From Nereocystis luetkeana (lineage: Eukaryota; Sar; Phaeophyceae; Laminariales; Laminariaceae), in NCBI GenBank assembly GCA_031213475.1, contig JARUPZ010000035.1, positions 3,090,953-3,154,952 of the forward strand: DNA of 64,000 nucleotides, read 5' to 3'. Below the pieces are notes generated by a model that made no database searches, was not told the DNA's origin, and was given only the letters and a program-made list of their open reading frames with translations. Position 1 is the stretch's first letter, and each line of letters begins with the position of its first letter. Positions 4,223 through 59,500 of the stretch are shown here, piece after piece. Position numbers and translations under genes: made by a program.

Positions 4223-4319
4223 TTAACCCTTTTAGAACTGCAGTCCCGTTTTGGGGACAAACCACTCAAACTTCAAGTAGTTTGTCCCCAAAACGGGACT
4301 GCGGTTCTAAAGGGGTTAA
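4223..4319. mobile_element. TTAA-flanked palindromic MITE (piggyBac-like)
   Basis: A 97-bp near-perfect palindrome bounded by TTAA on both sides. The left arm is CCCTTTTAGAACTGCAGTCC then CGTTTTGGGGACAAACCACT; the right arm is its complement. This is one of the best-preserved copies in the window and represents the family consensus. It has no ORF. The TTAA target and TIR starting CCC are hallmarks of piggyBac-type elements. Confidence 0.88.
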
Positions 4320-4407: not shown

Positions 4408-4505
4408 CCCGTAACCCTTTCAGAGCTGCAGCCCCTTTTCAGGGACAAACCAGTCAATTTCCAAGTAGTTTGCCCCCAAAACGGGGCTGCGGTTCCAACA
4501 GGGCC
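4408..4505. mobile_element. Diverged TTAA-type MITE copy
   Basis: Reads GTAACCCTTTCAGAGCTGCA ... CAAAACGGGGCTGCGGTTCC. Both arms are recognisable but the terminal TTAA tetranucleotides are eroded. A further half copy (CAATTCCAAGTGTTTCGTCC) lies just upstream at about 4,368-4,407. Confidence 0.7.
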
Positions 4506-4610
4506 AAGGCCTAAACGTTACCTGGTATAAAATAAGCCCACTGGAGGGACTGGCTGCGCCCAAAGCTTCGGGGGGCAAACTGACTACTCGGAACTAACGA
4601 CTACTGTAGC

Positions 4611-5210
4611 CGGCGACTTATGGTCAGCCGCCTCACAGCGCCAACGATATCATATCGATACTATTAATAGTGTTGGATATCATATCGAAATTTCGATATA
4701 TCTTTCGATAACAAAACGACATCATCCTACCTAACAAAAATTGTCCAACAATTTGTCGGCGACTTACGGTCAGCCACCTCACAGCCCCAACGATATCATA
4801 TCGATACTATTAATAGTGTTGGATATCATATCGAAATTTCGATCTATCGTCCGATGACAAAACGACATCATCCTACCTAACAAAAATTGTCCAACAATTT
4901 GTCGGCGACTTACGGTCAGCCACCTCACAGCTCCAACGATATCATATCGATACTATTAATAGTGTTGGATATCATATCGAAATTTCAATCTATCGTCCGA
5001 TAACAAAACGACATCATCCTACCTAACAAAAATTTGTCCAACAATTTGTCGGCGACTTACGGTCAGCCACCTCACAGCCCCAACGATATCATATCGATGC
5101 TATTAAGAGTGCTGGATATCATATCGAAATTTTCGGTCTATCGTGCGAAAACAAAACGACATTATCGTGCCGAGAAATTGCCTGACAAATCTGTCGGCGA
5201 CTTGTGCTTG
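4611..5210. repeat. 146-bp tandem satellite, four units
   Basis: Units begin with CGGCGACTTA at 4,611, 4,757, 4,903, 5,050 and 5,195, so the periods are 146, 146, 147 and 145 bp. Each unit contains GATATCATATCGATACTATT and its inverted partner GTTGGATATCATATCGAAAT, so each has an internal dyad. The first three units are nearly identical; the fourth has diverged. There is no ORF. The unit length is close to a nucleosome core; whether that matters is inference. Confidence 0.9.
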
Positions 5211-5372: not shown

Positions 5373-5593
5373 CTGCGGGGGGGCATAGTAAATAGGACCA
5401 AATATTTGCTGTTACGGGGGACCATAGTTAACAGGACCTTTGGTATACATGAAAAATATATATTTTAACCAAATTTACTAACAATATTTGTTCCTATTAA
5501 CTATGGTCCCCCGTAATAGTAAAAACAGCGAAATATATACCAGGTAGGTTTTTTGTGTGTACCGTAGGTCCTATTTTATACGGTCCCCCGTAA
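5373..5593. mobile_element. TA-type MITE carrying a nested copy of its own family
   Basis: The outer copy starts CTGCGGGGGGGCATAGTAAA at 5,373 and ends CCGTAA at 5,593. It is interrupted by a complete inner copy at about 5,412-5,516 (TTACGGGGGACCATAG ... CTATGGTCCCCCGTAA). After the inner copy the outer element resumes with AAAAACAGCGAAATATATA, which matches the uninterrupted copy at 16,830. The TA at the left border of the inner copy is not preserved. Confidence 0.8.
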
Positions 5594-5609
5594 AATACCA
5601 GGTAGCCTG

Positions 5610-5706
5610 TCAACCCTTTCAGGACCGCAGTCTTGTTTTGGGGGACAAACTACTTAGAAAGAGAGTGATTTGTCCCCAAAACGGGGCTGAAGTCCTTAAA
5701 GAGTGA
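5610..5706. mobile_element. TTAA-type MITE copy
   Basis: CAACCCTTTCAGGACCGCAG ... GGCTGAAGTCCTTAAAGAG. Palindromic arms are intact; the TTAA borders are degraded (GTCAA at the left, GAGTGA at the right). Confidence 0.75.
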
Positions 5707-8740: not shown

Positions 8741-9060
8741 CCCTCACGTGCCGGTTGGGTCGTAGTGCCGGCTGCCAAGTGCCGGTTGGGTCGTAATGCC
8801 GGCTGCCCGCTATAGTGCCTGTGGAATCGCTTGGCATAGATGGGAGTAATCCCTTTAGAACCGCGGTCCCGTTTTGGGGGCAAACTGCTTGAAATTAGAG
8901 TGGTTTGTCCCTAAAACGGGACTGCGGTTCTAAAAGGGTTAACCAGTGTGGCAGTGCACTACTAATAGTGCCGGTTGCCGCTGTATATAGTGCCGGTATC
9001 GTTGGATGGCGCATACCGGCATTATAGAGGGACCATTACTGCTGTCGTACTGCACAGAAG
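8741..9060. repeat. Dispersed repeat (GTGCCGGTTG family) interrupted by a MITE
   Basis: Starts with a short tandem repeat (GTGCCGGTTGGGTCGTA twice). It then runs through CTGCCCGCTATAGTGCCTGT, ATCGCTTGGCATAGATGGG, the MITE at 8,847, and AACCAGTGTGGCAG to GGCGCATACCGGCATTATAG. The same order without the MITE is found at 30,510-30,665, so this is a duplicated sequence with one occupied and one empty site. Confidence 0.8.
8847..8942. mobile_element. TTAA-type MITE with a matching empty site
   Basis: TAATCCCTTTAGAACCGCGG ... ACGGGACTGCGGTTCTAAAA then GGGTTAA. The related sequence at 30,560-30,585 reads GATGGGGTTAACCAGCGTGG where this copy has GATGGGAG, the element, then TTAACCAGTGTGG. This indicates insertion at one TTAA and duplication of it (the left duplicate has decayed to TAAT). 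Confidence 0.88.
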
Positions 9061-15450: not shown

Positions 15451-15547
15451 TTAACCCTTTCAGGAACGCAGTCCCGTTTTGGGGACATACCACCTAGAAT
15501 TTTAGTGGATTGCCCCCTAAACGGGACTGCAGTCCTAAAAGGGTTAA
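15451..15547. mobile_element. TTAA-flanked MITE copy
   Basis: TTAACCCTTTCAGGAACGCA ... GGGACTGCAGTCCTAAAAGG then GTTAA. Both TTAA borders are intact, and the arms are complementary over about 40 bp. Confidence 0.85.
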
Positions 15548-16208: not shown

Positions 16209-16330
16209 TTAACCCGTTTAGTACTGCAGTCCCGCGACGGTCAACACCATTTTTTGGCAAATGCGGGCCTTAACTTAGCCCCTTTAGAACTGCACCCACC
16301 GTTTCGGGGACGAAGTACTTGAAATTTTGT
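16209..16330. mobile_element. Rearranged TTAA-type MITE halves
   Basis: A left half (CTTAACCCGTTTAGTACTGC AGTCCCG) is followed after about 50 bp by a second left half (TTAGCCCCTTTAGAACTGCA). Neither has its right arm. Confidence 0.55.
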
Positions 16331-16829
16331 ATGAGATGATGTTTCCAGTAGTGTAAGCATGTGCCTACGGATGATCATCGTGGTGTGTACAGGCATTGGG
16401 TTTGGGCGTGTGTCGAGGTCGAGATGATGGCCCCCGCTGGTGACTCGTCTGCGCTTATCTGCTTTGCTTTGCTGGTATATGTTGAGTTCTCAACATACCA
16501 GTAGAAACGGGCACCGGATAGGAGGCGTTATTCTCAAAAACGAAAAAAACGTGTGACTGGTTTTCGTTCGGCAGGTACCAAAGCGTCGAAAACGGTGAAA
16601 ACCACGGGTGGATTTCGATTTTTCCTCGGTGTGCACCTTGCTGTGTACTCCCAAGTGTGTACCTGGTAGGCGCCTGGTTCTCTTGGTTTCCATGTTTTCG
16701 CCCAACTTTCACGCTGTCATGTTCATGTTCACGTCGTCCATTGCTGCGGATTGATTTCAGTGTGGATGTGGGTGCTCGAGAATAAACTGCTGTAAAATGA
16801 AATAGACATAGGAAAAATCACTCTGTTTA

Positions 16830-16926
16830 TTACGGGGGGCCATAGTTAATAGGACCAAATATCGATAGCAAAAATAGCGAAATATATAGGTTTTTGTGTG
16901 TAACGTAGGTCCTATTAACTATGGTT
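16830..16926. mobile_element. TA-type MITE, right end truncated
   Basis: Left end TTACGGGGGGCCATAGTTAA preceded by TA. The interior AATAGCGAAATATATAGG matches the outer copy at 5,373-5,593. The right end stops at CTATGGTTCG, so the last TIR bases are lost. Confidence 0.75.
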
Positions 16927-16974: not shown

Positions 16975-17073
16975 TTAACCCTTGTGAGACTGCAGTCCCG
17001 TTTTTTGGGACAACCCACGCAAATTATAGGCAAGGCTGTCCCCCAAACGGGACTGCAGTCTTAACAGGGTTAA
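16975..17073. mobile_element. TTAA-flanked MITE copy
   Basis: TTAACCCTTGTGAGACTGCA ... GGGACTGCAGTCTTAACAGG then GTTAA. Both borders are TTAA. Confidence 0.85.
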
Positions 17074-17449
17074 CCGCCGTTTTTCTTTATCCGGTGCCCA
17101 TCTCTAATCGCCAGGCGTGAAGGATGCCTTGTTTTTTGTTGGCGTAGCCCCACGACAGGATCCAGCAGTACCGTACTCGTATACCGTACATGCAAGTGTT
17201 TTTTCTTCACTTTTCGTCATATAGTGAAAAACGCCTACCAGGTACTACAATACACCCCCTTGGAAGTTTTCCATGCCGATTTCGCGATAGCGGGGAGAGT
17301 GCAAACGCCGAGCGATTCGTCCATGGAAAGTCGTCGTCGAGACGTTCGTACAGCCACCGTTTTCGTGGTGCTGCTCGTGGCTGTCGTCCCCCCTTGTTGC
17401 GGAGAAAATCGACTCGAGAGACCAATCCCAGGAAATCGATCCCAGGGGG

Positions 17450-17870
17450 GGGGGGGGGGGGCGGGGCGAACTCATTTGTTGCTTGCCTTAGTCGTTTGAC
17501 CATTGACCACGCATCCCTTTCGAGACGGAGCACCGTTCCCACTCCTAATAGAGACACCTCCAACAATTGGGCGCTCATTACGTTGTTTCCATATATTACA
17601 TACCTGGTAGAAACTTTTAGCTAATCTTATCCCCTTCCTGTTTCGCCGCCTGTTGCCACCATCTATCTCCTAGGATAGCGATCGTTGGTTCCTCGCTGCT
17701 ATATAGTGTGTCAAACTCCTCCATGTCACATTCGTCTATTTCCCTCATCTCCTCTTCTAACTCATCCCGTTCCTCCTTGTATATTTCACATTCTCCTACT
17801 ATGTGAGTTCTACTCTCTATTGCTTTGCCACATGGGCACATCTGTGCATCTATTTCCTCCTCCAGGGGGG
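17450..17870 (-). mobile_element. LINE 3' end, minus strand
   Basis: The reverse complement encodes the C-terminus of the same LINE as at 1.45 kb. A Cys/His segment (CPCGKAIESRTHIVGECEIY) is followed by an acidic stretch and AILGDRWWQQAAKQ, and ends at a stop near 17,617. About 150 bp of 3' untranslated sequence follow (ACAACGTAATGAGCGCCCAA ... GTCAATGGTCAAACGACTAA) and end in a run of C residues (G run on plus, 17,447-17,461). The copy is 5'-truncated, the usual outcome of LINE insertion. Confidence 0.8.
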
Positions 17871-26103: not shown

Positions 26104-26381
26104 CGCCTCGAACAGATCAGGCAGATCAGATAGATCACCTATCTATCTATCTACAGTAGGTCATTTAGGTCCTCGTCTGCCCTTGTGAGAGGTTGTGCGG
26201 GATCGACATGGTACAGATAAGCTCGGGAAAACACGTGCTACTACGGTAGGTCATGTGGACTATATGGCTTGCCATCTGGCAACATGAGCTATTAATAAAT
26301 AGATCATACGAATCAGAGATGCATCTACCCTGAATGATCTAGATCATCAAGTGGGAATCGATTATCTGTTCGAGGTGTGCA
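26104..26381. mobile_element. GATCTA-rich MITE copy
   Basis: Ends CACGCCTCGAACAGATC and CTGTTCGAGGTGTG form an inverted pair. The interior holds GTTGTGCGGGATCGACATGG and GCCATCTGGCAACATGAGC, as in the other copies. Confidence 0.75.
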
Positions 26382-27060
26382 CGCTTCCACTCCTTGTGAC
26401 CGACGCTGTAATCGTAATTTTCTTGGTCGTTTTCCCTCCCCCGCATCCCCGAAGGGTTAATGCTGCTCGTACTACTTTGTAGCAGCAGGCGTTTTTCCTT
26501 CCTCCTCCCCGCATCCCCTCTTGTTTACCGCCTCTACCGCTTCATTCGCCTTGCGTTTGTGTACAAGTTGGATTGGTGTCATTGGTCTCTGCAGGCGTTT
26601 CTGTTGTAGCGTTCTACGCGAAGGCCTGATGTTTTGTGCTTTCTTGTTTCTGGTGATCGAGAAGCGTGCTGGAAGACTCTCCTAGGAAGGCTTTTTATCT
26701 CCCCCCCCCCTGCCTTTCTAGGCGCCGCGTTGTGGTGTTTTGGAGGCATTTTCTCCTGCTTGACAAGCATGTCACTGCATGGTTTTGCGTTGAATGCCCT
26801 GAAAGGCTGTCTTGTCGTTGTGAGTCCATAAGCACAGGGATTGCTCTTCCTGAAGGCTCCACCACCATCATCACCACTACATACAACCACCTACCACTAC
26901 CACCATTATCACTTCATACCACCACCCCCACAATCACTACCTCTACCGCCACCATCGAAACCATCACCCTACCCCACCGTCACCACTACCGCCATCACTA
27001 CCACCACCACTATTCCTACCCCGACCACGGCGACATACGAAAGGGATAAGATGAACAAAA

Positions 27061-27315
27061 ATGTTTCTACTAGTACCAGGTATGTAATGTATGGAAACAA
27101 CATGGAAACAACGTAGTGAGCGCCCAAAGGAGGTCTCTATTAACCCTTTTAGAACCCCAGTCCCATTTTGGGGACAAACCACTCAAATTTCAAGTAGTTT
27201 GTCCCCTAAACTGGACTCCGGTTCTAAAAGGGTTAAGAGTAGAAACGGTCCGTCCCGAAAGGTATGCGTGGTCGTTGGTGAAATTAAGGCAAGCAACAAA
27301 TGAGTACGCCCCCCT
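27061..27315 (+). mobile_element. LINE 3' end interrupted by a TTAA MITE
   Basis: The LINE 3' untranslated sequence (ACCAGGTATGTAATGTATGG, ACAACGTAGTGAGCGCCCAA, then GGTATGCGTGGTCGTTGGTG and GCAACAAATGAGTACGCCCC) is split after CTCTA by the MITE at 27,140-27,235. The minus-strand copy at 17.5 kb and the copy at 62.1 kb are not interrupted there. Confidence 0.8.
27140..27235. mobile_element. TTAA-flanked MITE inserted in a LINE tail
   Basis: TTAACCCTTTTAGAACCCCA ... GGACTCCGGTTCTAAAAGGG then TTAA. The LINE reads CTCTATTAGGAGTGGGAACGG at 17.54 kb (complement strand). Here the corresponding CTCTATTAA and TTAAGAGTAGAAACGG flank the element, so a TTAA-like target was duplicated. Confidence 0.88.
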
Positions 27316-27462
27316 TACAGTTTTTTCCTAATGCTGTACGACTCTTTTCTCCCCAAGCGTCTTCATGTTTATGGTGTATGGAGGCGTTCTCGCGTGGATA
27401 GCGTTCCACTCGTGTTCTCCTGAAATGTCCATACCAATATGCGTGATATACCGCACCACTCT

Positions 27463-28016: not shown

Positions 28017-28158
28017 TTAACCCGTTTAGGACCGCAGTCCCGTTTTGGGCGCAAACTACTTGGAATTTGAGTGGATTGTCCCCAAACGGTGCTTATATTT
28101 ACGGACAAATGGTTACTACTCTGGGTGGGAATATAAGGAGCGTTTATACCTAAATATG
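28017..28158. repeat. Fusion of a MITE half with another palindromic repeat
   Basis: The left two thirds of a TTAA-type MITE (TTAACCCGTTTAGGACCGCA ... GATTGTCCCCAAACGG) runs directly into the GCTTATATTTACGGAC ... GGGAATATAAGGAGCG palindrome of the 21,298 family. The MITE's right arm is missing. Confidence 0.6.
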
Positions 28159-30027: not shown

Positions 30028-33000
30028 GTGAGGTCGTCCCTTACGAAGTATATGAGTTACTGTACACACCTCGGACGGACCACCGACCCCCACGTCATGA
30101 AGCATGATCTACTGGAGATTTTTTTTAATCAGACAGATTCCTGGTCTGCATTAAGATGTATGTATACAGTTGTAGCTCATTTTGCCGAGTGGAAGCTGTG
30201 TCGTCTGGACGATCTAGCGCGTGCTACCTGGGTTCGATCTGTACTCAAACAGATCATGCGCGGTAAGTGTTGACGGCAGGTTAGGACCTAGATGGCTTAG
30301 ATCGTGATCTGGCCCAAATGTGTCACCAATATCATAGTAGTACGTACCCTGGTGGGCGCTTTCGTCGAATGCTAGTTTTTGTGAGGCAAAGTCCTTACGC
30401 TCTCCCACCCCCTCATCACCCGGTTTGTGCTTCCTCTTTGTGTTTCGGCGTTCCTGGACCCTCATGCCACTACAACAACAGTGGACCCTCTGTAGTGTCG
30501 GTTGAGGAGTGGTGCCTGCTGCCCGCTATACGTGGTGCCTGTGGCATCGCTTGGCACAGATGGGGTTAACCAGCGTGGCAGCGTTTGCGGATTAGTGCCG
30601 GTTGCCGCAATACTGCAGGTTTTGTTGGCTGGCGCATACCGGCACTATAGAAATTACCATTGCTGTATTTAACCTCTTTCGTTTGGTTGATAGTCGGCAG
30701 GATTTCACGACTAATAACTACCCTGGTACCAGGTATTCGGTAGGTGCCGCTATGAATGTAGCCAACCAGTTGACTTTAGTCGGCAGCTCGGCTGGCGAAG
30801 CCAGCTGATGGCCAGCCGACTTGAGTCAGACGACCGAAGCGAGCTTCCCGGCCGAGGGGGGGGCGCCCAAACAACACAAAATGTATCCCGTATTCAGCAA
30901 TCCTTCCTACAAGTGTGGAAACCCAATAAGTCGGTTTAGTCGGCACCTCCGGGAACCGACTAACTATTAGTCCGAGTGATATATGGACCAGTTGGCCTCG
31001 AATCAACCCCAAGAAAAAAAAAACTGCGTTTCCCAATTTACATGATTTGTATTCCTCGCTATATGATTTTGATCCATCCATCCACCCGTTTATACCTTGG
31101 TCAAGTGTTTTAGCTTGTTTGCCCTTTCACGACTGGAAAGATGATACCACTTGTATTCCGAGTAGATTTTGTCCTCCGAAACGTAGCTGGAGTCCTAAAA
31201 GAGTCAAGGACGACGATAATGATCTTTCTTCTCTCTGTTTCCCCCTCGCCGTCTCCCCCTGTCGCCTTCTTCCATCTCCCTACTGCCCCCTCTCCCCTGC
31301 CCCCCCCCCCTCCGCCCTATCCTCTCTCTCTCCCCGCCACCCGGGTCGCACGCCCATATTTGTTGAAACCCTTCCATCTCCTCCTCTCCTCCTTTCCCCG
31401 TTTTCTCCTCACCTTCTCCCCCCTCTTCCCCTATCCCCCCCCCCCGCGGCCGCTACGAACGATCCCATTTACTGGTGAAACCTTGCATAAACAAAAAGTA
31501 GGGAGCGCGCAAGGCGAAGGCGACGACGCAGGCGGAGACGAAGCCGGTCGTTATCAAGCTCTTCCTCGGACTCTAGCTCCAGGTATATTGCACGTTGCGT
31601 AGCGGTCGGGTGTACCGTTCGCTTTTTATCGTTCGTTTGTATTTGGGGGCTATCCTGCGGGTGGGACGTTCGGGAGCAACTTTCGTTTGTAAACGTTCGT
31701 TGGTAAATTCAGGGTGTATCGTTCGGGAATAGCGTGCGTTTGTATCGTTTGGGTGTAATGTTTCCGGTGTAGCGTTCGGGTATTGGGTGTTACGCTCCGG
31801 TGGTGCATTCGGGTGTAGCATGGTTTTGGTGTGGTGTGTAACGCCCGTGTGTAGCGAACGTCCCATGGGTCCCGCTTGTTTTGTGGCGTTTGGGTGTAGT
31901 GGTCGTCTGGTTGGTTTTCGTGTGGTGTGTAACGCCCGTATGTAGCGAACGTCCCATGGGTACCGCTTGTTTTGTGGCTTTGGGTGTAGTGCTCGTCTGT
32001 AACGCTCGTGTGTAGCTCTTGTGTATAACGCTTGTGTGTAGCGCAAATGTGTGTCTCACACGTGTGTAACTCTTACGTGTGTAACACTTGTGTGTTACGC
32101 TCGTGTATATGCATGTGTGTAGCGCTCTTGTGCAACCTTAGGGTGTACGTTAGGGTGCAGTATTCAAGTGTAACGCTTGTGTGTAACGCTGCGCGTAGGG
32201 TGTAGCGCTCGTAACGTCGTGTGTAACGTTCGTGTGGCGTGTAACGTTCGTGTGTGACGTTCTTGTGGCGTGTAACGTTTGTATGTAGCGTTTGTGTGTA
32301 ACGCTCGTGTGTAACGCTCGAGTGTATCATTTGTGTGTAGTGTTCGTGTGTAACGCCCGTGTGTAGCGTTGACGTGTGTATCGCGTGTGTGTATCACATC
32401 GCATGTTTGTAGCTCTCATGTGTCACGCTCGTGTGTAGCGCTCGTGCGTAAAACTCGTGGGTGACGCTCGTGTGTAACGCTCGTATGTCACGCTCGTGTT
32501 GTACGAGCTGGGCCAGCCATGAAACGGGCAATCAATCATGGAGTGGTATCTCGTGAACCGCTGCCAATTAGGACTTGAAAATTGGAGGCACTGGCCCTGA
32601 CATATCAGTGCATGCGCAAACAGAAAGGTATATTAAAATTATGACATATTTATGATTCGATTCGAACTCGACGAGATTGCGGCGAAAACTCGAAAACACC
32701 AACTTTTTGCACTAAATTCCAACCAAATTCAGTAATCAGTCGTCGTTCGCGATCAAGGCGAAATTTGGTGGAGACGTTACTGGGGGTACAAGAAGAACAT
32801 CGATATCAGTTTCATTGCCCAAATCGTTGCCCATCACGAGACCAAAAACAGTATTCCATACTTGAATCAAGTGTATCGAGAAAAATGTATTTACCGCGAT
32901 GCAGCGCTCAATTTTGCGATTTTCGGTCTGAAATTTCAACACCGTATTTGTGACGCCCGTGCAAAATTAACTCGTTCCTGGCTTTTTTATTTTTCGTTTT

Positions 33001-41632: not shown

Positions 41633-44600
41633 CGTCGCTTAGCCCGACCCGAGGAAGACCTCGGACGTACCGTGCCGTATGTTGCGTTGTCGACAGGAAA
41701 CGGACAAGTGTTTTGTTGTTTTCTCCTCATTTCAAGTAACCATGCGGACGCTTGTACGCGCGCGTATGACGCGTGTTGTTGGTGATGTTGGTGTGGTATT
41801 GATGGTTTGGGTGTAGTCGGCGGTGGAGTGATGTTGGTGGTTGGTGTGGTTATGGGTGGTTTTGGTGGCGTTGTCGGTGGCGATGGCGTTGTTAGGGTAT
41901 TGTGCTGATTCTAGTGCTGGTAAACCGCTCGACCGATGTGTGCGGATGGGCAAATGCTCGGGCGGACATGGTCGAGGGGATGGTGTTAGGCGGGAGGGGG
42001 GAAGGAGGGAAGAGGGAGGGGCAGAGGCAACAGCTCGAGCGCATCTCACACTTGTCTTGTATGACTCGCTCACAAAACAAAAAAAGACAAAACCGAGACG
42101 TGAAAAAGTAGGTAGGGTCCAAGGTCTCGACCGAGAAATACCACGAAAAGCTCGCTGATCAAGCAGCGGTCACCCTTTTTCCGCCCTGGCCAGTTAGTGC
42201 TCTCCCTTTTGGTACGGCTTGGCCAATCAGAGATTTTTCCGGCTTGATCATTCGGCGATCATGTTATCTACTCCCGCCGTGCCCAATCACCAGTCACATT
42301 TTCCCCCCCTATAGAGCAAAGTCGGCGATCATGCGAACGCCGTTTTGCCGCCGGGACTATAACCAGATTTCCATCTCTTTTCCGCCCTCTTTTTTGTTTT
42401 TTTGCCAAATCGGTGATCACCACTCCTCCCCCCCCCCCGCTGACCAATCGATGTCCCATTTCCTTCTTCATCTCCTCTCCTTTTTGTTTTGTTCGCTTGC
42501 CTCTTGTCGCGTGAAACAAAACGCGGCTGTCAAACGGTGACGAATGATTCCCGCCAGATATAACCCGACGCCGCCGCAACCGCCGCCCCTCGCGGCTGCC
42601 GGCGGGGAGCGGGAGTACGGGTCCGGCACCCTGAGCATGTCGGCAAGGCGGGCGTCTTTAGGCTATCACCACCTTGGGGGGAGGGGTGGTGGTGCCGGAG
42701 GTCGCGGTGGCGGTGGTGGCGGTGGCCGTGGCGGTGACTGGCCGGATATCGGAACAAGTTCAGGCGTCTCTTCTATGGGAGGGGGAGGGGGGGGGTACAA
42801 GCGTCCCCGCAGTCCCGAGGCCGTGGAGATGGAACTGGACGAGGGCTCGCCCAGCCCTCCGAGAACGAGAGAGCAGGACTTGCAGAAGAAGCAGCAGATG
42901 CAAATGCAAATGCAGAAGCAGCAGCAGATGCAGATGCACATGCAGAAGCAGGACTCTCGTGGTATTGGTGAGCGTCGCACGCTGCGGTTGTGGTACCTCT
43001 TTTTTTTTGTTTCCGTCATTTTTTGTTTTAGCTGGCCCGTTGGCTCGTTTGTAACCCTTTTGCTACTTCAAAAATGATACCATACTACATCCAAGTAGCT
43101 CTTACCCAGAAACGTGGGTGCAGTTTTATGATGATGAATCGGGGCTTCGTATCTGCTGTGTGGGGGGCTGCTTCCGACCTCAACAACCAAAATAAGCAGG
43201 GCTTTTCGCGGGTCAGGTCAAACCTCACGGGTCGGGTCGCGAAAATTTTTGGGTATGTTGCCTTGACCCGACCCGACCCGCGAGATTTTGAAAGCCTCTT
43301 GACCCGACCCGACCCGACCCGTGAGATTTGAAAATGTCTTGACCCGACCCGAACCGACCCGCGAGATTTCGAAACCTCCTGACCCGACCCGACCCGACCC
43401 GCCACTTTCCGACTGACCCGTGAGACACGGGTTTCATGCGGGTCGGGTCACCTTGACCCGCGAGACCATTTATCTTGACCCGAAGGTTCGACCCGCGGAT
43501 CTGGCCCGTGGGTGGGCACTTCAAAAACAATTTAAGGTTCATTTTAGTGCCCCGAAGCGATATATGACCTGGCTGTAGAGGGTATGAATGGATGCGGGCA
43601 TGCGTATATGAATTTGGCGGTGTTTTAATATCTGAATATGATACCAAAGGGGTGTTCTGGAGTATTGGTACGAGATAAGCCTTTGGGTAAGAGAGCGGGA
43701 AGTTATTCAAGTGTCGGGTCCGCGAGCCGAATGCGCGGGTCCGACCCGCGGGTCAGCAAAAAACAACTCGCGGGTCAGGCCCCGCTTCTCGCGGGTCATG
43801 ACCTGACCCGACCCGTAAGCTTTTCATCACCTCTTGACCCGACCCGACCCGACGCGTGAGATTTGAAAAACTCTTGACCCGACCTGACCAGACCCGCGAG
43901 CTTTGAAAAATTCTTGACCCGACCCGACCCGCGAGCTTTGAAAAATTCTTGACCCGACCCGACCCGACCCGTGAGATTTTGAACACTTCCTGACCCAACC
44001 CGACCCGACCCGACCCGTGACATTTTGAACATCAAGTGACCCGCGAAAAGCCCTGAAAATAAGCCACAAGCCTCTCTGTCCATACCCGCGGCAACCTTTT
44101 TTTTTCAGTAGACGTGGATCAAGAGTTTCCCCGCGTCGTCGCGGAAGCGTTTTTTTAGTCGCCGCCTTTGTTTGTCATTGTTCGGTGCGTTTTTGTTTCC
44201 AGCAGTGTGTACGACCTGGCCCAGCTTGGACATAATGGTTTACAGCAGTGCGCACTAGCTCCTCGTTATATCTTGTTATAGGGCTGGTCCCAGCTTGCGA
44301 CCTTATCTTTGAAGCGCCCACGGTGTAATATCCCTTCATGATAAGTTGTGTACGAGTATGAGCCTCGGCGCTGCTTCGACAGCATGGTTGATGGTGCACA
44401 CAAAACTCCTCGCTACAGATTCATTCGGAGAATTTTCCTCGGCGGTGGGGGTTAACCCATTTAGAACCGCAGCCCCGTTTTGGGGACAAACTACTTAGAT
44501 TTTGAGTAGTTTATCCCCAAAAGGGGACTGCAGTTCTAAAAGGGTTGAGGGTTAGGGCGTTGGGTTGTATAGCGTCAACAATAAAATGGTCAAAGTGTTC

Positions 44601-46722
44601 ACACTATACTATATCCCCTCACAACATTTTGCGTACGAGACTTGACCCTGCTTCCACCAGTTTCGACAGAATGGTTGAAAGTGCACGCAAACTCCATTGC
44701 AGACTCATTCCAGAGAATTTTCCTCGCGGTCGGGGTTAGGGTTTGTTATACGTTGCTCCGACGATAAAAGGGTCAATAGCGCACACTGACTCCGTGTACA
44801 GGACGTGTCCCAGCTTGCGACGAAATGGTTGAAAGCGTCCACACTGCTGTAACATCTCCTCGTTACCGTACCGTGTATAAGTATGAGACTTTGGCCCTTC
44901 TTCCACAGCATGGTTGATAGTGCACACAAATTCCTCATTGCAGATTATTCCAGAGGAATTCCCCGAGAAGTTTCCAGGCGGTCGGAGGAATTTTCCCAGG
45001 CGGTCGGGGCTTAGATTAGGACTAAAATGTACGAGGGGTATACCACTTTGGCCGGGAATATATCCCTCGTTTAGTATTCATGCCAGAGTCCAAAGGGTGA
45101 TTGTATTGCCGGCCCGAGGAGTATACGGTATTCCTAGTGTGGGTTTGGAGTCGAAAGTATTGTCCTGGTTGGTGCATGTCGACCATTTTGTCAAGCTGGG
45201 ACCAAGTGAGGCCGTTGAATGGGCTCATCGTTTCCACCGACGTCGGCGATTGGGCGAGAGGTGTCTCCAGCTTCTCCGTCTCAAAAGACTTCAATTTGCG
45301 TCTTGACGGACAACCAACAACCCCCACACTTGAGAGTGGTGTATCAAGTCTAGAAAACCGTGACGGGTCAAGGGTATAGTAGACCGTCAACCGAGCCGTC
45401 AAAGGAATCCCCAGACTAAAATGGGTATATTAATGTTCAGTCTACGGACGTCTCGACGGGTCAAAGCTACTGTTGACCGTCAGCCGATATCGTTGTTTCC
45501 GCCTGCTTCGGAGGCAAGCCAACCGACCGACCGACCGACTGGCTCCTTATTCGGCAGGGTGTGCTATCTTTTTGAACGCGCTTTTGCGATATTGAATTCA
45601 AAAGTTTTTGGGGGGGGAAAACTTGGAATTAGTAGTGTGGGGTCATTTTTGCAATAGTAAAAACGTCAACATCCTCGCGGATCTAGGCGTATTTCACGCA
45701 CGCTAAGTTTTGGGGACAAACTGCTTGGAGTTGTCCTCGATTTTCTTTTTCACAAGCGGTCATATATAGGGGGGACGAATAAACCCACAATTTGCTTGTT
45801 TTCGCTTTTTTTTCTGTTTCCGTTTTGTGCGTAAATCTCGCAGGCCCTTACCAAGGCGACCCGAACCGGTCCAACAACCACGCTTCGCATCGCCCAGGCT
45901 GGGACGGCGGCCGTTCCTCCTCTCCGGGAGAGCCTCGGCACGCCACGGAGGGTGGCAAGCACCGCCACCAGGCGATGCCGCAGCCCTCCCCGGCGTCGAA
46001 CGGGCCGGGCGGGGGGGGGGGGGGGCGACAACAGAACCACCCCCGCCACGGGTACCGCCACAACCAACACCAAAACCCAAGCTCAAACCAACACCTGAAC
46101 CTAAACCACAGCCAGAATCATCCCCCAGGCGCGGCGTTGACCCCCAACGAAAGAAGACTCGGCCGGTCGATGAGCCACCCCGCGATGATCGAACGGGGTA
46201 ACTCCCGATTGGGCCCGAACTCCCGAGGTTCCCCCGTTGCCCCGATGGGGTCGGGGTCGGGGCCGGGGCAGGGGACGCCCTCTCGAGCCCTCCCCCTCAC
46301 GCGTAGGGGGTCTCCTATGCCGCACGCGCTCGGGGCGGGCTCGGGGCAGCCCCTCTCTGCGCCGTCGCACTCTTCTCCTCTGCCGCGAGGCTCGCACGGA
46401 TCGAAAGCTTCGCCTGGGGGGGCTACGCGCAAAGGGGAAGGCGGGTGGGCGGGTGGTTATGGGGAGGCGGGAGAAGGGGCGGCAACGACGGCTACGGTGA
46501 GCGCGGAGAGCAACGGGTGGAGCGGGCACAGGAGGCAGCGAGGCCCCGTGGTGACGGACCGACTGGTGGCGCTGAAGGCGGAATTCTTGGAGCTGCACGA
46601 CATGCTCCTGGAGAGTGACTTCCAGTGGGAGGAGAGTCAGCGGTTCTGCGAGGTGCTCAAGCTGCAGCTCGACCAGCTGATGCTCTTGCCTCACAGGCAC
46701 CGCGACTCGTCCGCGCCCCCGA

Positions 46723-48381: not shown

Positions 48382-48659
48382 GGGCAGAAAGTAAGTGCAG
48401 AGGTTTGGGAACAAATTTTCCTGGAGAGGGGCGCAGCCCCAGAAAAGGTATTTTCCAGATTGTTCCGAAGCGTGTCAATTGTTAATTCTCTCGTTCGGGT
48501 CCGCTTAGTTCACTCGCTGGGGGCAGAAAGTAAGTGCAGAGGTTTGGGAACAAATTTTCCTGGAGAGGGGCGCAGCCCCAGAAAAGGTATTTTCCAGATT
48601 GTTCCGAAGCGTGTCAATTGTTAATTCTCTCGTTCGGGTCCGCTTAGTTCACTCGCTGG
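48382..48659. repeat. Perfect 139-bp tandem duplication
   Basis: The block starting GGGCAGAAAGTAAGTGCAGA (48,382) is repeated at once from 48,521 with no difference I can see over 139 bp. The identity means a recent event. It has no recognised gene. Confidence 0.92.
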
Positions 48660-48804
48660 GGAACCCCCCTCGATTTTTTGATTATCGAGCTTCGGGTGTC
48701 GGTCCTGGCCACAATGCGACGCAAAGATCCGCTCTTCCTCCGTTGGGCATATTTTATCAGCCTCTTACTGGCCGATCCTCAGGAAGCGCTCGAGCAAATT
48801 TCTC

Positions 48805-50583: not shown

Positions 50584-53500
50584 GTGAGAGCTCTATGCAT
50601 GTTTTCGGACTGGCATATCTTCTTATGTACGTACAGCAGTGGTGCCGCAGTCAAACGGGATTAAAAACTCCACCAGGGGGGGCGCGAGTGTGCTTCGTCT
50701 CTGCTTTGCTGTCGACATAGGAGGGCTGGCATGCGGTTTGCGAAGGGTGGGGCGTCTTGTATAGCCGAGGCCGTGCTTTTGAGCTTCGAGTGCAGTTCTT
50801 GTGTGTTCACTAATTGAGCAAAGGTCCGCGTGCTGTGCTGCTGCTGCTGCTGCTGCTGCTATGCATTTACTTGAACGTGATAATTATCTTCCCTCGAACA
50901 ACAGGATCTAATGTAGAACTGGCTCTCTCGTACGAGTACCACTGGACCAGGTCTGTCTGTCGCACGGCTGCTGCGCAGTGCAGGCAGGGCCACTGCACTT
51001 TCGGCGAGGGTGCGATACGTCCCCAGGGATGCCGGCTAAACACGCAAGGGCAGCCCTTATCCGCCAATACATAAGAACATTACGAAACGAAACATGTGTC
51101 ATGTGTTCAGGGTTGCTGCGCACTGGGTCTGGTATTTGAAACAAGGAACCAGAAACAGGAGCTCGGGATTACGGACAAGGGCCAGCAGGACAAGCAGAGT
51201 TCAGTCACCATCGATCAGTCCAGCTACCCTCCATCCGCCAACCACTCTCCTGAACAATTTCCTGTTCCCTCGTATAGAAGACACCATACCATGCCGGTAC
51301 GAGCACATCCCACCCGCCAGCCCTCTCAACACTCGGCATCCGATCAAAGAACACGCTCAACATGGTATGTTCTAAATAATGGTATACAGGCGGTCTACGC
51401 GTATATGTACCAGGTATTGATATACCAGAGGTAGAGCACACCCAGTCTATGTTTCGCAGTGACGTGCTTCTGTTTGCTCTACGGCGGCACAGTAAGCACC
51501 ACTGCCGCTGTATACGGACTGTATACCCTGGACGAGGCCATATAACAGCCGTATTATCAATAGTGCGCGCGATCAAAAGTACCACACACAGTTTGCAAAG
51601 ATGGGTTTCGGCGAAATCCTCGAGCTCATCACAACGGTTGATTTTATAAATAGAGGTGTGTTGAGCAACTTTTTGTCCGTCACAGCAGTAGTAGCGGTCC
51701 ACGGAAACGAGAGATAACACTTGTGACAAGATGATAAAAATAACAACCCTTCCCCCACCGGACGAAATTATCCAAGCTTAAGTTCTCGACAACAGGGAGA
51801 GTGCAGATGCCGAGCGGTTCGTCTGTCTGTCCATGGAAAGATCTTGAGTTTTTTTTTTCAAGTTTGTTGTTCACGGGTCATGACCCGACCCGCGGGTGGG
51901 GTAACGAGGTCTTCAATAACTCACGGGTCGGGTCGGGTCGGGTCGGGTCGGGTCGGGCCGGGTGACCCTATTCGACCCGATCCGCGAGTGTTGACCCGAC
52001 CCGTAAATAGGCCTGGGATTTTTCCAATGCCGCCGTTATGCATACCACGCTGTCCCGAAATATAGTGACTATTTGTGTCAAAATATTCAATGTAAACTGT
52101 ACTTCGATTTAGGGACAGAGTGGTACAGCAGTGTCATAGCCTACAGAGTAGCCATCGAGAAAACCCCGTTCTTGCAGCCCCACCCCCGTTTCTGGGGACA
52201 AAGCGCTCGAAGTTATTTGACCAGCATAATTTGCAGTAATATTTATAGTAACCAATCGATGCACTTGGAGGCGTTTCGTCGGCGGCGGATGCTTCGTCGC
52301 TGTGTACTATTACGGGGGACCATAGTTAATAGGACCAAATATTGTTCGTTAAACTGGTTGAATATATAGGTGTTTATGTATACCATAGGTCCTATTAACT
52401 ATGGTCCCCCGTATCAACAGTAACTGCTGTGTGATCGATCAAACCGTGAATTCTAAAACAGGCGCCGCTTGCCTTGAAGTCCGGAGCCTGCTCGGCGAAC
52501 AGCAGCCCAGCGGCAGCCTCGTCTTGCTCGAGCAGGGCGAGGGGGAAGGGGAAGGGCGCCATGGCCATGGCGGCGCAGGAAGAGCCGTGGTTCGACGAGG
52601 CCAAGGCTGGGGTCCTCATGGACCTGGACGACCTCGAGTGAGTAAGCAATACCGGCGCCCCATGTTTTTGGGGCAAAGTGAGCTGACACATCAGACAGAT
52701 CATGATCTATCTGTAGGTGATCTAGTTCCCCGCCTGCCGTTGTGAGAGGTTGTGCAGGATCTACATAGTACACAGGTCCAACCCAGGAAACATGTGCTCC
52801 AAGTAGATAATAGATCATAATAGGTTCAGAGGGGAGGCGGGTCCCACCCGGCAACATGAGCTTCACCAGCAGATCATACAGTGTCGGGAATAGGTCTGCC
52901 TTGAAAGATCTACCTGGAAGATCGTGAACTGTGGGGATCGATGATCTGCCCGAGTTGCGTCTGCTTGAAATAGGGTGCTGCCGTCAACTTGTGTGCGTTA
53001 GGATGAGAATTGGGCAATACACGACGATAGATGATCTCGATCGTCGGACGTAGATTAGGCTTCAGGCAACTCGAAAGGGTATCCCTATTTTTTGCCGGCG
53101 TCAAAATTGCAGTAGTATGAATAACTCACATTTTATAGTTTTTGCGGTGTTAGCTGCTGTGTAGCGCTAACATGCGAAAAGGGGTTTACTCGTTACGACT
53201 GCTCGTATTTACTTACGAATGGTAAGAACTGCAGTAGAGCAGCTGTTGGGCTACGTACTTTGAGTCACGTTAACTCCTGTTTGTAAGCAGGTATGTTTGT
53301 TTGTTTTCTTGAGTCACGTTGACTGTTGTTTGTGAGCAAGCATGCAGGCGTGTTTAGTGTGCTCTTGCTCGTGACTCGTGGCACGAGGGGCATATTAAAA
53401 TGGCAAATGTCGAGATCCAAGACACGCCCGGGCAAACGAACACCCCCTCCCCAGTCAGAGTCGATGGGGGGGGGGTATGCACGAGCTCGTGGCGCCATTC

Positions 53501-56500
53501 TCCATAGGTTTTGCTAAACGCTTTTAGGACTGCAGTGCCGTTTTGGGGTCAAACTACTTAGAATTCGAGTGCTTTGTCCCCAAAACGGGACTGCAATTGT
53601 AGCAAAAGGGTTAAGCTGCCTTGTGCTCTTCCGCTCGAATTAAAACATCTATAAGGGTACCAGTATTAAACTATACCGCCAGGTGTTTGATACCGTATGT
53701 ATACTATCTGGTATGCACCGGGTGTATATGGTCAACACACCTTCTTGCGGAATTTGTGTTATGTTTCGTTTCGATAAAAAAGGACGTTTTTTTTTGGCTT
53801 TTCGTTCTGATTTTCCGGTCTGGATTGTGTCGTTCTGTTCTCGTACCCGGTACGTTTTCATTTCGCTTGCTTTTACCATGATGCGTTAGCGATTATTTTT
53901 TTGGTTTTCTCTGTCTCACGGTCTGTGACCACATAACTAGTATATATCTAGCATTAAGAATAAGGACGGACACCGGGTGTACTGATGTAGTTAGGGAGAA
54001 AGAACGGTTCAATGTGAAGACAACACACACCTTGCATTTCCCCCCCCCCCCTCCTCAGCCGGCCCTCGTGGTGTTAAAACTCCAGTAACTCTTGGTTTAT
54101 CATATGTTAGCGACTGCTGTTACGCTTATTCCGTAATGAGCGCAGTGAAAAAAATACACGAATGAAATGGGTGCTTCAGACGTCGCACGCCGTCGTCGGG
54201 AAGTTTGGTAGTCCCGCCCGCTTACTGCAGAGGTATACACCCGCCTGCCGTTTTGGATACCTTCCTTGGGGACCGTTTATTTATACTCGTGCTGTATCTT
54301 TATGTCTGCCGCTTTTTTCGCCTCCCATAGCCGCGCCTCGGACAACACGATCAACTGCGACAAGCCTAAGAAGAGCGTGGGCGACCTCGCCGACGCGGAG
54401 CTCAAGGGCAAGAGGTGGGTTTTCCGCAGAGGCGTTACTGCCGTGAGAATATAAGCTACAAATAGTAAACCGTGGTGCGACCCTTTGACCGCCCCCCTAC
54501 TACATTAAAAGGTGGGTTTCCCACAGAGGCGTTACTGCCGTGAGATTATATGCTACTAGTGGTAGACCGCGGTGTCACCGCTTGACTGACCGCCCCCCTA
54601 CGCACTTTTGTTTTTTTAAGATCTTCCAGGAGACCGTGTTTTTGTTTTGACCCCGTGGCTGACCGTTCCCTATACTAAACTCAGTATATCAAGGCCCAAA
54701 GAGACCTTGACGTTTGACCTGCCCGAACTGGCCGGCCTCCGATTATATCTAACATCCTTGGCGGCAAGTCGCGGCCACTGGTGCCCCGCGGCGGACTTAT
54801 GTACAGGGCAGGCCACGGCGCATCGCGTAAGTGGTCTGGGCCGACTCTCCTATGATTTTTGTGTTCCCGCCGGGTGGCAAGTACTGCTGTGGTTCTCACG
54901 CCTCGGGCGGATGTTCGATTCCCACTTGATGGTCAAGATATTCCAGGGCGGGTGGATTTCTGATCGGTAGGGTCTGTTAGCCCTTTCGCAGTAGCACTGC
55001 AGTCCCGTTTTGGGGACAAACTACTTGGAAAATGAGTAGGTTTGTCCCCCAAATGGGACTGCAGTACTAAAAGGGTTGGTAGCTCATGTGCCGGGGTGGG
55101 AGCCGTATAATCTGCGTGATATTTCATGTTTTCCCGGGTTGGGTCTGTACTGTACAGACCCTGCACAGCTTGTCATGACGGCAGGTTGTGATATGATCTA
55201 GATGATCTGCACGATGCCCGACATGTGAACTACAGTAGTCCAACGGGCTCAGGTGTCACCTCTGCTGGCAAGGAGGCCGTGGTTCGATCCTCAGCGGGTT
55301 CAACTATCAAACAAACGTTTTCATGGCCTCTCGGGCCCCAGAGCTTTTACTATGAGCAAAAATCGATGCAGATCGACGAGAAGCGGGACTGCTGAACCCT
55401 ACTAGCATGAGCGATAGTAGCAATCAAGGCGTGTTATGTACCTGGGGGTAAGGGAGACATCTACCTGTAAAGCCACTATTAATATTACGGGGGGCCTAGA
55501 GTAAATAGGACGTACGGTACACACAAAAATATCTATGTACACCTATTTTTACCAACAAAATTGGCCCTATTGGCTATGGCCCCCCGTGATACTAGAGCTG
55601 TTAGTTGGTTGGCTTGCAGTCGCCGACTATATTAGGTAGTACATAAGTGGGGTACCCGAGTTAAGAGAGCCCCTTGAAACAGGCCAGTTATACCGCTCTT
55701 CTCTCAGGTTGTGTAGCTTACAGGTTTTATTATAGTATACGCGTCATAGTCACATACCTGGTACATAGGTTTTATTATAGGCGTCACACGTCGTGACAAG
55801 GCGATCAAACCTTTAAGGACAGCAGTCCCGTTTTGGGGGCAAACTGGTTAGAATTTGAGTGGATTGTGCCCAAAACGGGGCTGCAGTCCTACAAGGACTG
55901 AACCGCTCTGAGCTCCGTGCAGGTGATCTCTTGAACCGGATGCTCTCTGATCGGGTACCCCAATGTAGTTGGCTGGGTATCGAAGTTAGTTGGGCGCGGT
56001 TGTTTTAGAGTTCCTACTGCTGTACAGTAGTTCTGCTGCTCTCTATCTGGCTGGCGTGCTTGCCGCTCGAATTGTGTGTCCTCTTAGTCAAGCCTCGAAG
56101 CAATGTATGAAATAGCTCAACACCTCGGACAGAGCATGATCTACAGGTAGATCCTAACCTACCGGTGTTAGATGTCGCGAAGGATCTGTACAATTATTCA
56201 TGGCACAGATCCAACTAGGGAAACATGCCCTAGGATCAAGCACGTTGTATGGCTCCCACCCGTATGGTTCCCACCCGTCAACATGAGCTACGGTAGATCC
56301 TACAAGATCGGGAATAGATCTGCCTAGAAAGATCTACGGTAGGTCATGATCTATCTGTAGATGATCTGTCGGATTTGTGAAATAGTTGGCTTGCTTGGCC
56401 ACCCGACTAACAACTAGCGAGTCATGTCCAGCTGACTCACATCCCCAGTCACCACGGCTTGTTCGGGAGGCCGTCAGGTGTAAAAATCCCCAACGAGTTG

Positions 56501-59500
56501 GAAATTCCGGAGAGGTTTTCCCAAAGTGCGATGAAAAGCTTAAGCGTGGGAGGGACGGAGTCGTTCAACTTCGAGACTTGCGGTAATATCGCGACGCATG
56601 CTACAGTGTCAGTAGAGGTGTACCCATTTTTTTTCTCAGGCTCCCCGGTTGAGGATCTCTCTAACCCCTCTCAAAACCTGACTTTTTTTTAGAAAGTCAA
56701 AGTGCAATGGTTGACGAATATTCTCAATGGCCTAGGTAGACAAAAAGATAATTTTGCAAACACAAAAAATATTTGGAATTCCGACGATTTTGGGTGAAAT
56801 AAGGAGCCCCATCGTTCAGAAAACATTTTAGCCAAAAAGTGCTACCTCTACCACGCGTCTCACCCACTATTTATTTCTTACAAGCGGCAACGGAGTCGTG
56901 CTATATAAACAAGAGATTGGAGCTAGGATTCGCACCAGCGAATATAATTTGAAGATTTCTGGACGTTGCTCGTTGAGTTACTGTCGTCTGTACCAGGCAC
57001 AACTCTCGATGGGCATATATGGAAGGTTTAAGCTTTAATATGATGACGCAACGGTCCTTACATTTCCGTCTAGAGTAGTATAGTTTGTTTATATTAATAC
57101 CAGTACGTTTTTGTCCGAATTTCTACTCGCTTGTTTTTTCGCGTGTAACGCATGCCTTGTGCTCGTCTTCGACCCGGTCTTCAACGGACTCAACCAATGG
57201 AATGCCCCCCCCCCCCCCCTATGGTCATACGACTACAGCCATGATGCATGAGATCGAGTACATAGAACTACTTATATCTCCTATCGAGTACACCCCCCCT
57301 CCGAACCCCTCCAAACCCTTCCAAACCCTGACAACGACTAAACTGTTTTTAGGGTGCTGGTGCGCTGCGACCTGAACGTTCCGCTGGACGGGTCGACCAT
57401 CACGGACGACACGCGCATCCGCGCTTCGCTACCGACGATCAAATACCTCGCCGACAAGGGGGCCAAGGTCAGGCCTCTACCGACGGATAGACGAGCAGAT
57501 AGGTGGATAAATAGATGGATCGCCGACAAGGGGGCCAAAGCCAGGCCTACCGACGGATAGGCGGGCAGAAAATTAGGTACCTGGTAGATGGGCAGGCCCA
57601 AGGGTAGAAGGATGGACGGAATTGCTGACAGATATATGTGGCTGGGGCGACGCAGCGGCCCCCTTTGTCTAAAGCGTACGTATATCAGACTAGCCTTTGC
57701 TCCTACCAGGTACGCTACTAGCTAGGGTTCCTGGATAAGCATAATCTGTAGCCTGTAGCCCAGAAGAATGACCCCGCATGCACGGAACCGACGTTGCTGT
57801 AGGGTTTGGTTTCCAGCAGAGACGGGATCATGCGTTTATTGTATAGAATGTCAAAAGATAGATAGACGGGCAGGTGGACAGAGAGGTCGATGGATATATA
57901 CACGGGTAGACGGGATAGATAGATATTACGGGGGACCATAGTTAATAGGACCTATGGTGTAGATAAAAACCTATATATTTAACCATTTTTACTAACAATA
58001 TTTGGTCCTATTAATAGGACCTATGGTGTGCATAAAAACCTATATATTTAACCATTTTTACTAACAATATTTGGTCCTATTAACTATGGTCCCCCGTAAT
58101 AGATAGATAGATACTTCGTAGATAGATAGATAGATAGATAAATAGATAGACAGGTACTTATTTGTAGTACAGGTATATAGGTAGCCAGTAGAAGGGCGGA
58201 CGGAAATAGTGATATATTTATAGATAAACGAGTATACTTCGAAGTATATAGGTACACGGATCGATAGACAGGTGGACAGTCAGGTCGATCAATATACACA
58301 CGGGTAGACGGGATAGATAGGGAGATAGATAGATAGAAAGGTGGACAGATAAATGGATAAATAAATCGACAGACAAACAAACAGACATGCAGACGGTTAG
58401 ATGGATACATCAGCACACAAGTAAACAGACAGGCAGGCAGACACAAGACACGAACGGAACCGGCGATGTTGTACGATTTCTTGCCTTGATGCCTTACTCT
58501 AGCCACACGGACGGATCTGTCCCAAGATCCGTTGGACCAAATAGGTCCATCGGGCTCTGATTGATGTTACCAGGTATGTTTTTATGTTTTTGCAAGTTTG
58601 ATGACAAATCTGTCCAAAGGTCGAACGGGCCATATGTCTAAAGATCGCTACGGTAGAATCAATGTCATCGAACGATCAACACTCTAAAAAAAAACTACTT
58701 CATATAAATATTATTCCTGTTTTTGTATGTTTGGTGACGGGTCTATCTATGGCCCAACGATCCATATTTCGAAAGAAATCGATTGGATCCATACATAAAT
58801 GGATCCATCGAATGATCCCGACACTGGTTGATGTGTATTTTTGAGATGACGGGACTGTCCAACGATCAAAAAGATCCATCGGATCCATCGGGACCTTTAG
58901 ATGGATCCACCCGACGATCGACACTGATTTACTGCACTGCTCTAAATGTACCCGAAAAATCGACTCTAATTCCAAGTGTTTTTGTTGTTTCCCCACAACG
59001 GCAGTGCAGTCGTTAACGGGTTGACCCTTTTAGGACTGCAGTCCCGTTTCGGGGGCAAATCATTCATATTCCAAGTGCTTTTGTCCCAAAACGGGGCTGC
59101 GGTCCTTGAAGGGTTAAGAACACTACAACCCTTTGGGTGGGGAACGTGCCACTCGGAACTATTACGGGGGGCCATAGTTAACAGGACCAAATATTGTTAG
59201 TAAAAATGGTTAAACATATAGGTTTTTATGTATACCATAGGTCCTGTTAACTATGGTCCCCCGTAATATTAATTTTATTATTTGTGTCAAGAGTGTGCGA
59301 CACCTTTTTCTTTTTTCAGCAGGACGATGATTTATTAATATTAATGTAGTTTGTGTATTTTCGTCTTTGGCGTCGGCGATGGTTTTCGGGGGGGACGGGG
59401 GTCGATAAATCTGTCGACAGGTGCTTCTCTCGTCCCACCTTGGGCGGCCCAAGGACGGACCGGAGGACAAGTTCTCCCTGACCCCGGTGTCCGAACGCCT

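Follow-up and report, generated by a model that had tools for sequence, protein, structure and literature searches.

The window analysed here, a contiguous stretch of 64,000 nucleotides, carries a dense family of short palindromic elements that probably represents a family of non-autonomous, fully palindromic MITEs of the piggyBac type. Both the statistics of the borders and one clean empty site lend good support to the existence of a TTAA-bordered, CCC-tipped family of palindromic MITEs. The class that fits it best is the piggyBac-like one, since CCC(T) tips and a 4-bp TTAA target, in elements of about 100 bp that carry no gene, point to a piggyBac-like MITE rather than to a Kolobok one. An earlier note on this DNA had arrived at the same reading; the borders, the CCC tips and one empty site uphold it, whereas a second empty site, at 27,140, is a weaker case, and the description of the repeat around it as a LINE is unconfirmed.

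Copies of the element in the window

BLAST searches with the copies at 8,846-8,942 and 27,140 as queries identified 17 recognisable copies, 12 of them with both ends, so that the estimate in the earlier note of at least a dozen in 64 kb is borne out; the other five are either fragmentary or degenerate at one end, and two short matches (45,706-45,727 and 60,563-60,595) were excluded from the count. Together the copies occupy 1,470 bp, approximately 2.3% of the window. The consensus, about 97 bp with its borders, has the layout TTAA-CCCTTTTAGRACYGCAGTCCCGTTTTGGGGACAAAC...GGG-TTAA, with ends that read CCCTTTTAGRACYGCAGTCCC, and the two-ended copies measure 95-103 bp including borders, being short, similar in size and without coding capacity. 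The core 17-mer GCAGTCCCGTTTTGGGG, with up to three mismatches, occurs 28 times in the window, compared with 0.25 occurrences expected from shuffles. Exact element patterns gave no match in viral (two patterns) or prokaryotic (one pattern) contig collections, a result of little weight because the source genome may be absent from them.

The copies differ in the state of their borders. TTAA is present at both ends at 4,223-4,319, a copy that lies 5.2% from the consensus and whose arms are 93% alike, as well as at 15,451-15,547, 16,975-17,073 and 27,140-27,236, the last within a dispersed repeat. The first-noted copy, 8,846-8,942, is bordered by TTAA on its right side and on its left by GTAA, which differs from it by a single change; the borders are TTAA and TTGA at 44,452-44,548, TAAA and TTAA at 53,515-53,614, GTAA and CCAA at 4,411-4,507, and TTAG and TTGG at 54,977-55,079, a copy that also lies within a dispersed repeat. 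Left borders of TCAA accompany decayed right ends at 5,610-5,705 and 55,805-55,899. Partial copies include 26 bp of an outer arm with a TTAA border (16,209-16,234), a single arm with a TTAG border (16,275-16,327), and a truncated copy with TTAA on its left (28,017-28,086).

Three further copies lie between exons of a phosphoglycerate kinase (PGK) gene, as had been claimed: 59,021-59,117 (borders TTGA and TTAA), 60,438-60,531 (degenerate left end, TCAA on the right) and the half copy 61,791-61,836, whose right border has decayed. The gene was located with a human PGK1 query, which matched at 57,351-57,467, 59,412-59,561 and 62,535-62,612, and weakly (E 0.30) at 63,577-63,654; Pfam reports a PGK match in the window at 8.2e-32, and the best match of the PGK fragments is the PGK chain 7zy7, which points to no particular lineage.

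Borders and tips

Of the 29 ends, 14 have an exact TTAA directly outside the CCC/GGG tip, 7 of them among the 15 left ends and 7 among the 14 right ones; at each of 20 other offsets between -12 and +8, either a single end per side carries it or none does. The earlier note had proposed such a tally for the whole genome, and the one given here covers the copies of the window. A looser count, of at least three of the four TTAA letters, includes 23 of 29 ends (14 of 15 left, 9 of 14 right), and one of its six misses, before 54,981, in fact reads TTAG followed by CCC, the end having been placed one base off; at offset +8, however, the loose count still yields 13 left and 8 right ends, and since the arm itself reads TTAG at that offset, the exact count is preferred. 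Left borders other than TTAA are all one change away from it (GTAA, TCAA, TTAG, TAAA, TTGA); on the right, the ends at 5,610, 55,805 and 61,791 are unrecognisable, and CCAA and TTGG are two changes away.

The tips read C, C, C and T at positions 1 to 4 in 21, 22, 24 and 21 of 24 arms. They correspond to the tip rule for piggyBac-like elements given in a report on coral MITEs, CC[C/T]T with TTAA (PMC2872659), and TTAA is indeed found at both borders of the element, although most relatives of the insertions other than the one at 8,847 carry TTAG, TAAG, TTGC or no such site.

The tips also bear on the alternative that fares best, namely that the family belongs to another TTAA-targeting superfamily, Kolobok or Sola3, and that its tips have converged on those of piggyBac. 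Sola3 shares the use of TTAA, which counts for this alternative. Kolobok likewise targets TTAA, as described in a report on T2-MITEs, but its tips are given there as AG/RR, or AGGRR in the T2-MITEs themselves (PMC6004289). The tips found here are CCC, with C at each of positions 1-3 in 21 to 24 of 24 arms, which speaks against Kolobok. An origin in Kolobok or Sola3 is considered unlikely.

Unoccupied related sites

The insertion at 8,847 can be compared with a related repeat on the forward strand at 30,552-30,585 (GATGGGGTTAACCAG), which contains a single TTAA and no insert. The earlier note had described this relationship, with the empty site at 30,566, and it was found as described; the repeat is the sole clean empty site among the comparisons, every one of which involves diverged paralogous repeats and not alleles.

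The 27,140 copy had been put forward as a second such case. The insert does have TTAA at both ends, but the three relatives of its host repeat read otherwise at the insertion point: TTAG at 17.5 kb (17,530-17,570, reverse strand, CTCTATTAGGAG, no insert), TAAG at 62.2 kb and TTGC at 60.3 kb. The host repeat itself is a dispersed sequence about 190 bp long, rich in C at one end and without a match in Pfam, present at 27,050-27,320, 17,430-17,660, 60,240-60,440 and 62,150-62,370; besides containing the 27,140 insertion, it adjoins the 60,438 copy. Its identification as a LINE 3' tail is unconfirmed, since a reverse transcriptase was not detected by Pfam (E 0.01) in any of 30 six-frame chunks, which together span the window except for about 100 bp near 51,000-51,100.

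Among the relatives of the 54,977 host repeat, a sister without insert on the reverse strand at 26,281-26,330 (TTTATTAATAGCTCATG) contains TTAA plus four further bases. TTAA is present only in this one of the five relatives that could be aligned across the junction, and is absent from those near 23.6, 28.4, 53 and 56 kb; a sixth relative, a weak match at 44.0 kb, was set aside as it sits in a GGGTC-rich array. The absence of TTAA from four of five relatives makes the piggyBac-like reading slightly less likely. The 44,452 copy has a sister near 44,735 that reads TTAG within a GGGTTA-rich stretch, and constitutes weak evidence.

These comparisons also address the idea that TTAA is part of the inverted repeat of the element itself and not a duplicated target. 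TTAA is palindromic and stands at both ends, and its exact form is missing from most relatives of the other insertions, all of which speaks for such an arrangement; the sister at 30,566, however, retains one TTAA in the absence of the insert, and TTAA is also present in the 26.3 kb sister, so that this explanation is quite improbable.

Palindromic structure, folding and age

The consensus is palindromic at 86 of 97 positions, and the near-palindrome at 8,846-8,942, folded alone as 96 nt, has a predicted energy of -71.7 kcal/mol, whereas its shuffles average -25.2 (z -13.1). Each of eight copies folded alone was more stable than all 200 of its own shuffles, with energies that range from -52.6 to -74.1 kcal/mol, in agreement with the suggestion that a transcript of the element would fold into a hairpin. 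The wording of the earlier note, a near-perfect palindrome of about 96 bp, suits the 8,846-8,942 copy but is too strong for most others, since identity between the arms of a copy ranges from 0.68 to 0.93 (mean 0.80) among the 12 two-ended copies. The mean divergence of these same copies is 12.6% from the consensus (range 5.2-17.0%) and 21.8% from one another, which suggests that they are old and moved long ago.

The two arms of a copy carry little sign of having changed in concert. Identity is 79.7% between the two arms of a copy, as opposed to 78.3% for left and right arms taken across copies, and a within-copy value this high arises in 1,653 of 20,000 permutations (8%). There are 12 copy-by-column cases in which a minority base is common to both arms: five fall at tip position 10 and the remaining seven over five other columns. 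At tip position 10, where G replaces A, 10 of 12 copies have the same base on both arms. Symmetric source elements would leave such agreement, and the pattern points to two source lineages of this kind. As the arms show no clear covariation, the hairpin looks like a product of inherited symmetry; this symmetry appears to have been inherited and then eroded without a clear pairing constraint, although with only 12 copies a weak constraint is possible.

Two candidate signs of selection were considered and set aside. Selection on the hairpin is unsupported by the arm permutation test, to which 12 copies give little power. Extra conservation of the CCC tip and of bp 17-32, a segment that in each consensus arm holds a GTCCC-6-GGGAC inverted repeat, seemed apparent from 39 of 456 changes as compared with 82 of 504 (Fisher 0.0003), but the value becomes 0.31 once three lineage-variable columns are removed.

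It is very improbable that the copies were retained as RNA hairpins, such as small-RNA or miRNA precursors acting in cis, for example in the PGK introns: the very stable predicted folds of all eight copies folded, the three copies between PGK exons and the shared minority bases would fit such a role, but arms are barely more alike within a copy than between copies (0.797 and 0.783, leaving room for a weak excess), five of the 12 double changes sit in one lineage-diagnostic column with the other seven spread across five, four copies are clear fragments, and Rfam, at gathering scores, matches nothing in the window.

Other repeats and signals in the window

The first-ranked dispersed 9-mer in the window is the near-palindromic TACCAGGTA (TACCTGGTA on the other strand), with 27 copies where 0.49 are expected and where the maximum of 100 shuffles is 4; its sites include 12,646, 12,690, 22,051, 22,058, 39,324, 57,578 and 61,773, and none lies inside a MITE copy. 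The flanks of these sites carry almost no information, and each of the other single-base variants of the 9-mer occurs just 0-4 times, which indicates that the majority of sites did not arise by decay of one longer repeat; the exceptions are 17,601 and 27,074, which share a repeat, 30,727 and 48,991, which share another, and two sites that overlap. Spacing is uneven, with six of 26 gaps below 150 bp as opposed to 1.6 expected, a number reached by 32 of 10,000 random sets. The 9-mer resembles either a short signal that has been maintained or the scar of a precise insertion; in the literature, the matches listed for it all look unrelated.

Another family of palindromes, about 110 bp long and of the form TATTACGGGGGACCATAGTTAAYAGGACC...GGTCCCCCGTAATA, is present at 962-1,072, 5,405-5,523, 5,549-5,596, 16,828-16,925, 52,297-52,419, 55,478-55,591, 57,923-58,102 and 59,158-59,272, the stretch at 57,923 including an internal 69-bp duplication. 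Its ends are TA, which we take to suggest a MITE of the Tc1/mariner type. Tandem repeats consist of a perfect duplication of a 139-bp unit at 48,382-48,661 (100% match, 2.0 copies), either very recent or an assembly effect in view of the perfect match, and of arrays at 4,611-5,166 (146-bp unit, 3.8 copies), 43,265-44,042 (GACCCG-rich units of 35-75 bp) and 59,968-60,213 (the 17-bp ATCTATCTATCTAATAG). ARAGORN identified no tRNA genes in the window.

A candidate mechanism of movement

For a piggyBac-like family of this kind, movement would depend on a transposase whose gene lies elsewhere; this enzyme would recognise the two CCCTTTTAGRAC... arms, which are nearly identical, and cut at the CCC tips, and the element of about 89 bp would come to be inserted between two copies of the 4-bp TTAA target. 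We infer that the enzyme was a piggyBac transposase and that movement was of the cut-and-paste type. A Pfam search (E 0.01) of 30 six-frame chunks with stops written as X, spanning the window apart from about 100 bp near 51,000-51,100, detected no piggyBac transposase, its only hits being PGK and one New_glue match.

A palindromic consensus present in 17 copies within 64 kb would imply, if the family was mobilised by piggyBac, that some natural transposase tolerates identical ends. More specifically, it is tentatively proposed that a piggyBac-class transposase mobilised the family by synapsing two identical ends of about 45 bp. If so, asymmetric ends would not be a rule of the superfamily, and a palindrome that spans the whole element could be an efficient substrate; the transposase, if found, would show whether a natural enzyme of the piggyBac class works with two identical ends. 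Apart from the question of identical ends, what is recorded here is a dense palindromic TTAA MITE family of an otherwise ordinary kind, in an apparently photosynthetic eukaryote.

Comparison with known systems

Among the papers listed by searches of PMC, which includes few subscription papers, none is by its title or abstract opening about a fully palindromic piggyBac MITE in an alga, and passages of PMC4513859, PMC11707139 and PMC4421812 contain nothing decisive on the element. Elements of the piggyBac class are already on record in brown algae: a table of transposable elements in Ectocarpus lists DNA/PiggyBac with four families and, as its columns read, 1,588 copies, and the same report counts non-autonomous DNA transposons among the short elements of which intronic TEs consist (PMC12477816). 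The likeness to the Ectocarpus elements is one of class and of high copy number (PMC12477816).

The closest parallels in form are the CMITE families I-VI of Acropora corals, which are also about 100 bp long, with TTAA duplications and, in most families, CCCTTT... tips; for these elements an allele free of the insert was seen, one copy lies in a presumed intron, and a link to the piggyBac-like AmiPB elements is drawn (PMC2872659). They differ in that their inverted repeats, of 13-14 bp and shorter in families IV-VI, surround a conserved interior of 75 bp, whereas here the palindrome spans nearly the whole element (PMC2872659). Kolobok T2-MITEs are likewise short and flanked by TTAA, differing in their AGGRR tips (PMC6004289).

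With the type member, piggyBac of T. ni, the TTAA target is shared, but the native enzyme is reported to need asymmetric ends (LE35/RE63) in cells, with LE/LE inactive and RE/RE excising without integration, while the element described here consists of two near-identical arms and carries no gene (PMC7351741). A fully symmetric element is thus not what the type member would predict, given the inactivity of LE/LE in cells; the hyperactive variant hyPBase is, however, less strict about asymmetry, which places tolerance of symmetric ends within reach of a known enzyme (PMC7351741). In addition, the left end of T. ni piggyBac includes a palindrome at bp 17-33 that is bound by the CRD, a position close to that of the GTCCC-6-GGGAC repeat (bp 17-32) in each arm of the present consensus; this correspondence may be due to chance and is suggestive only (PMC7351741).
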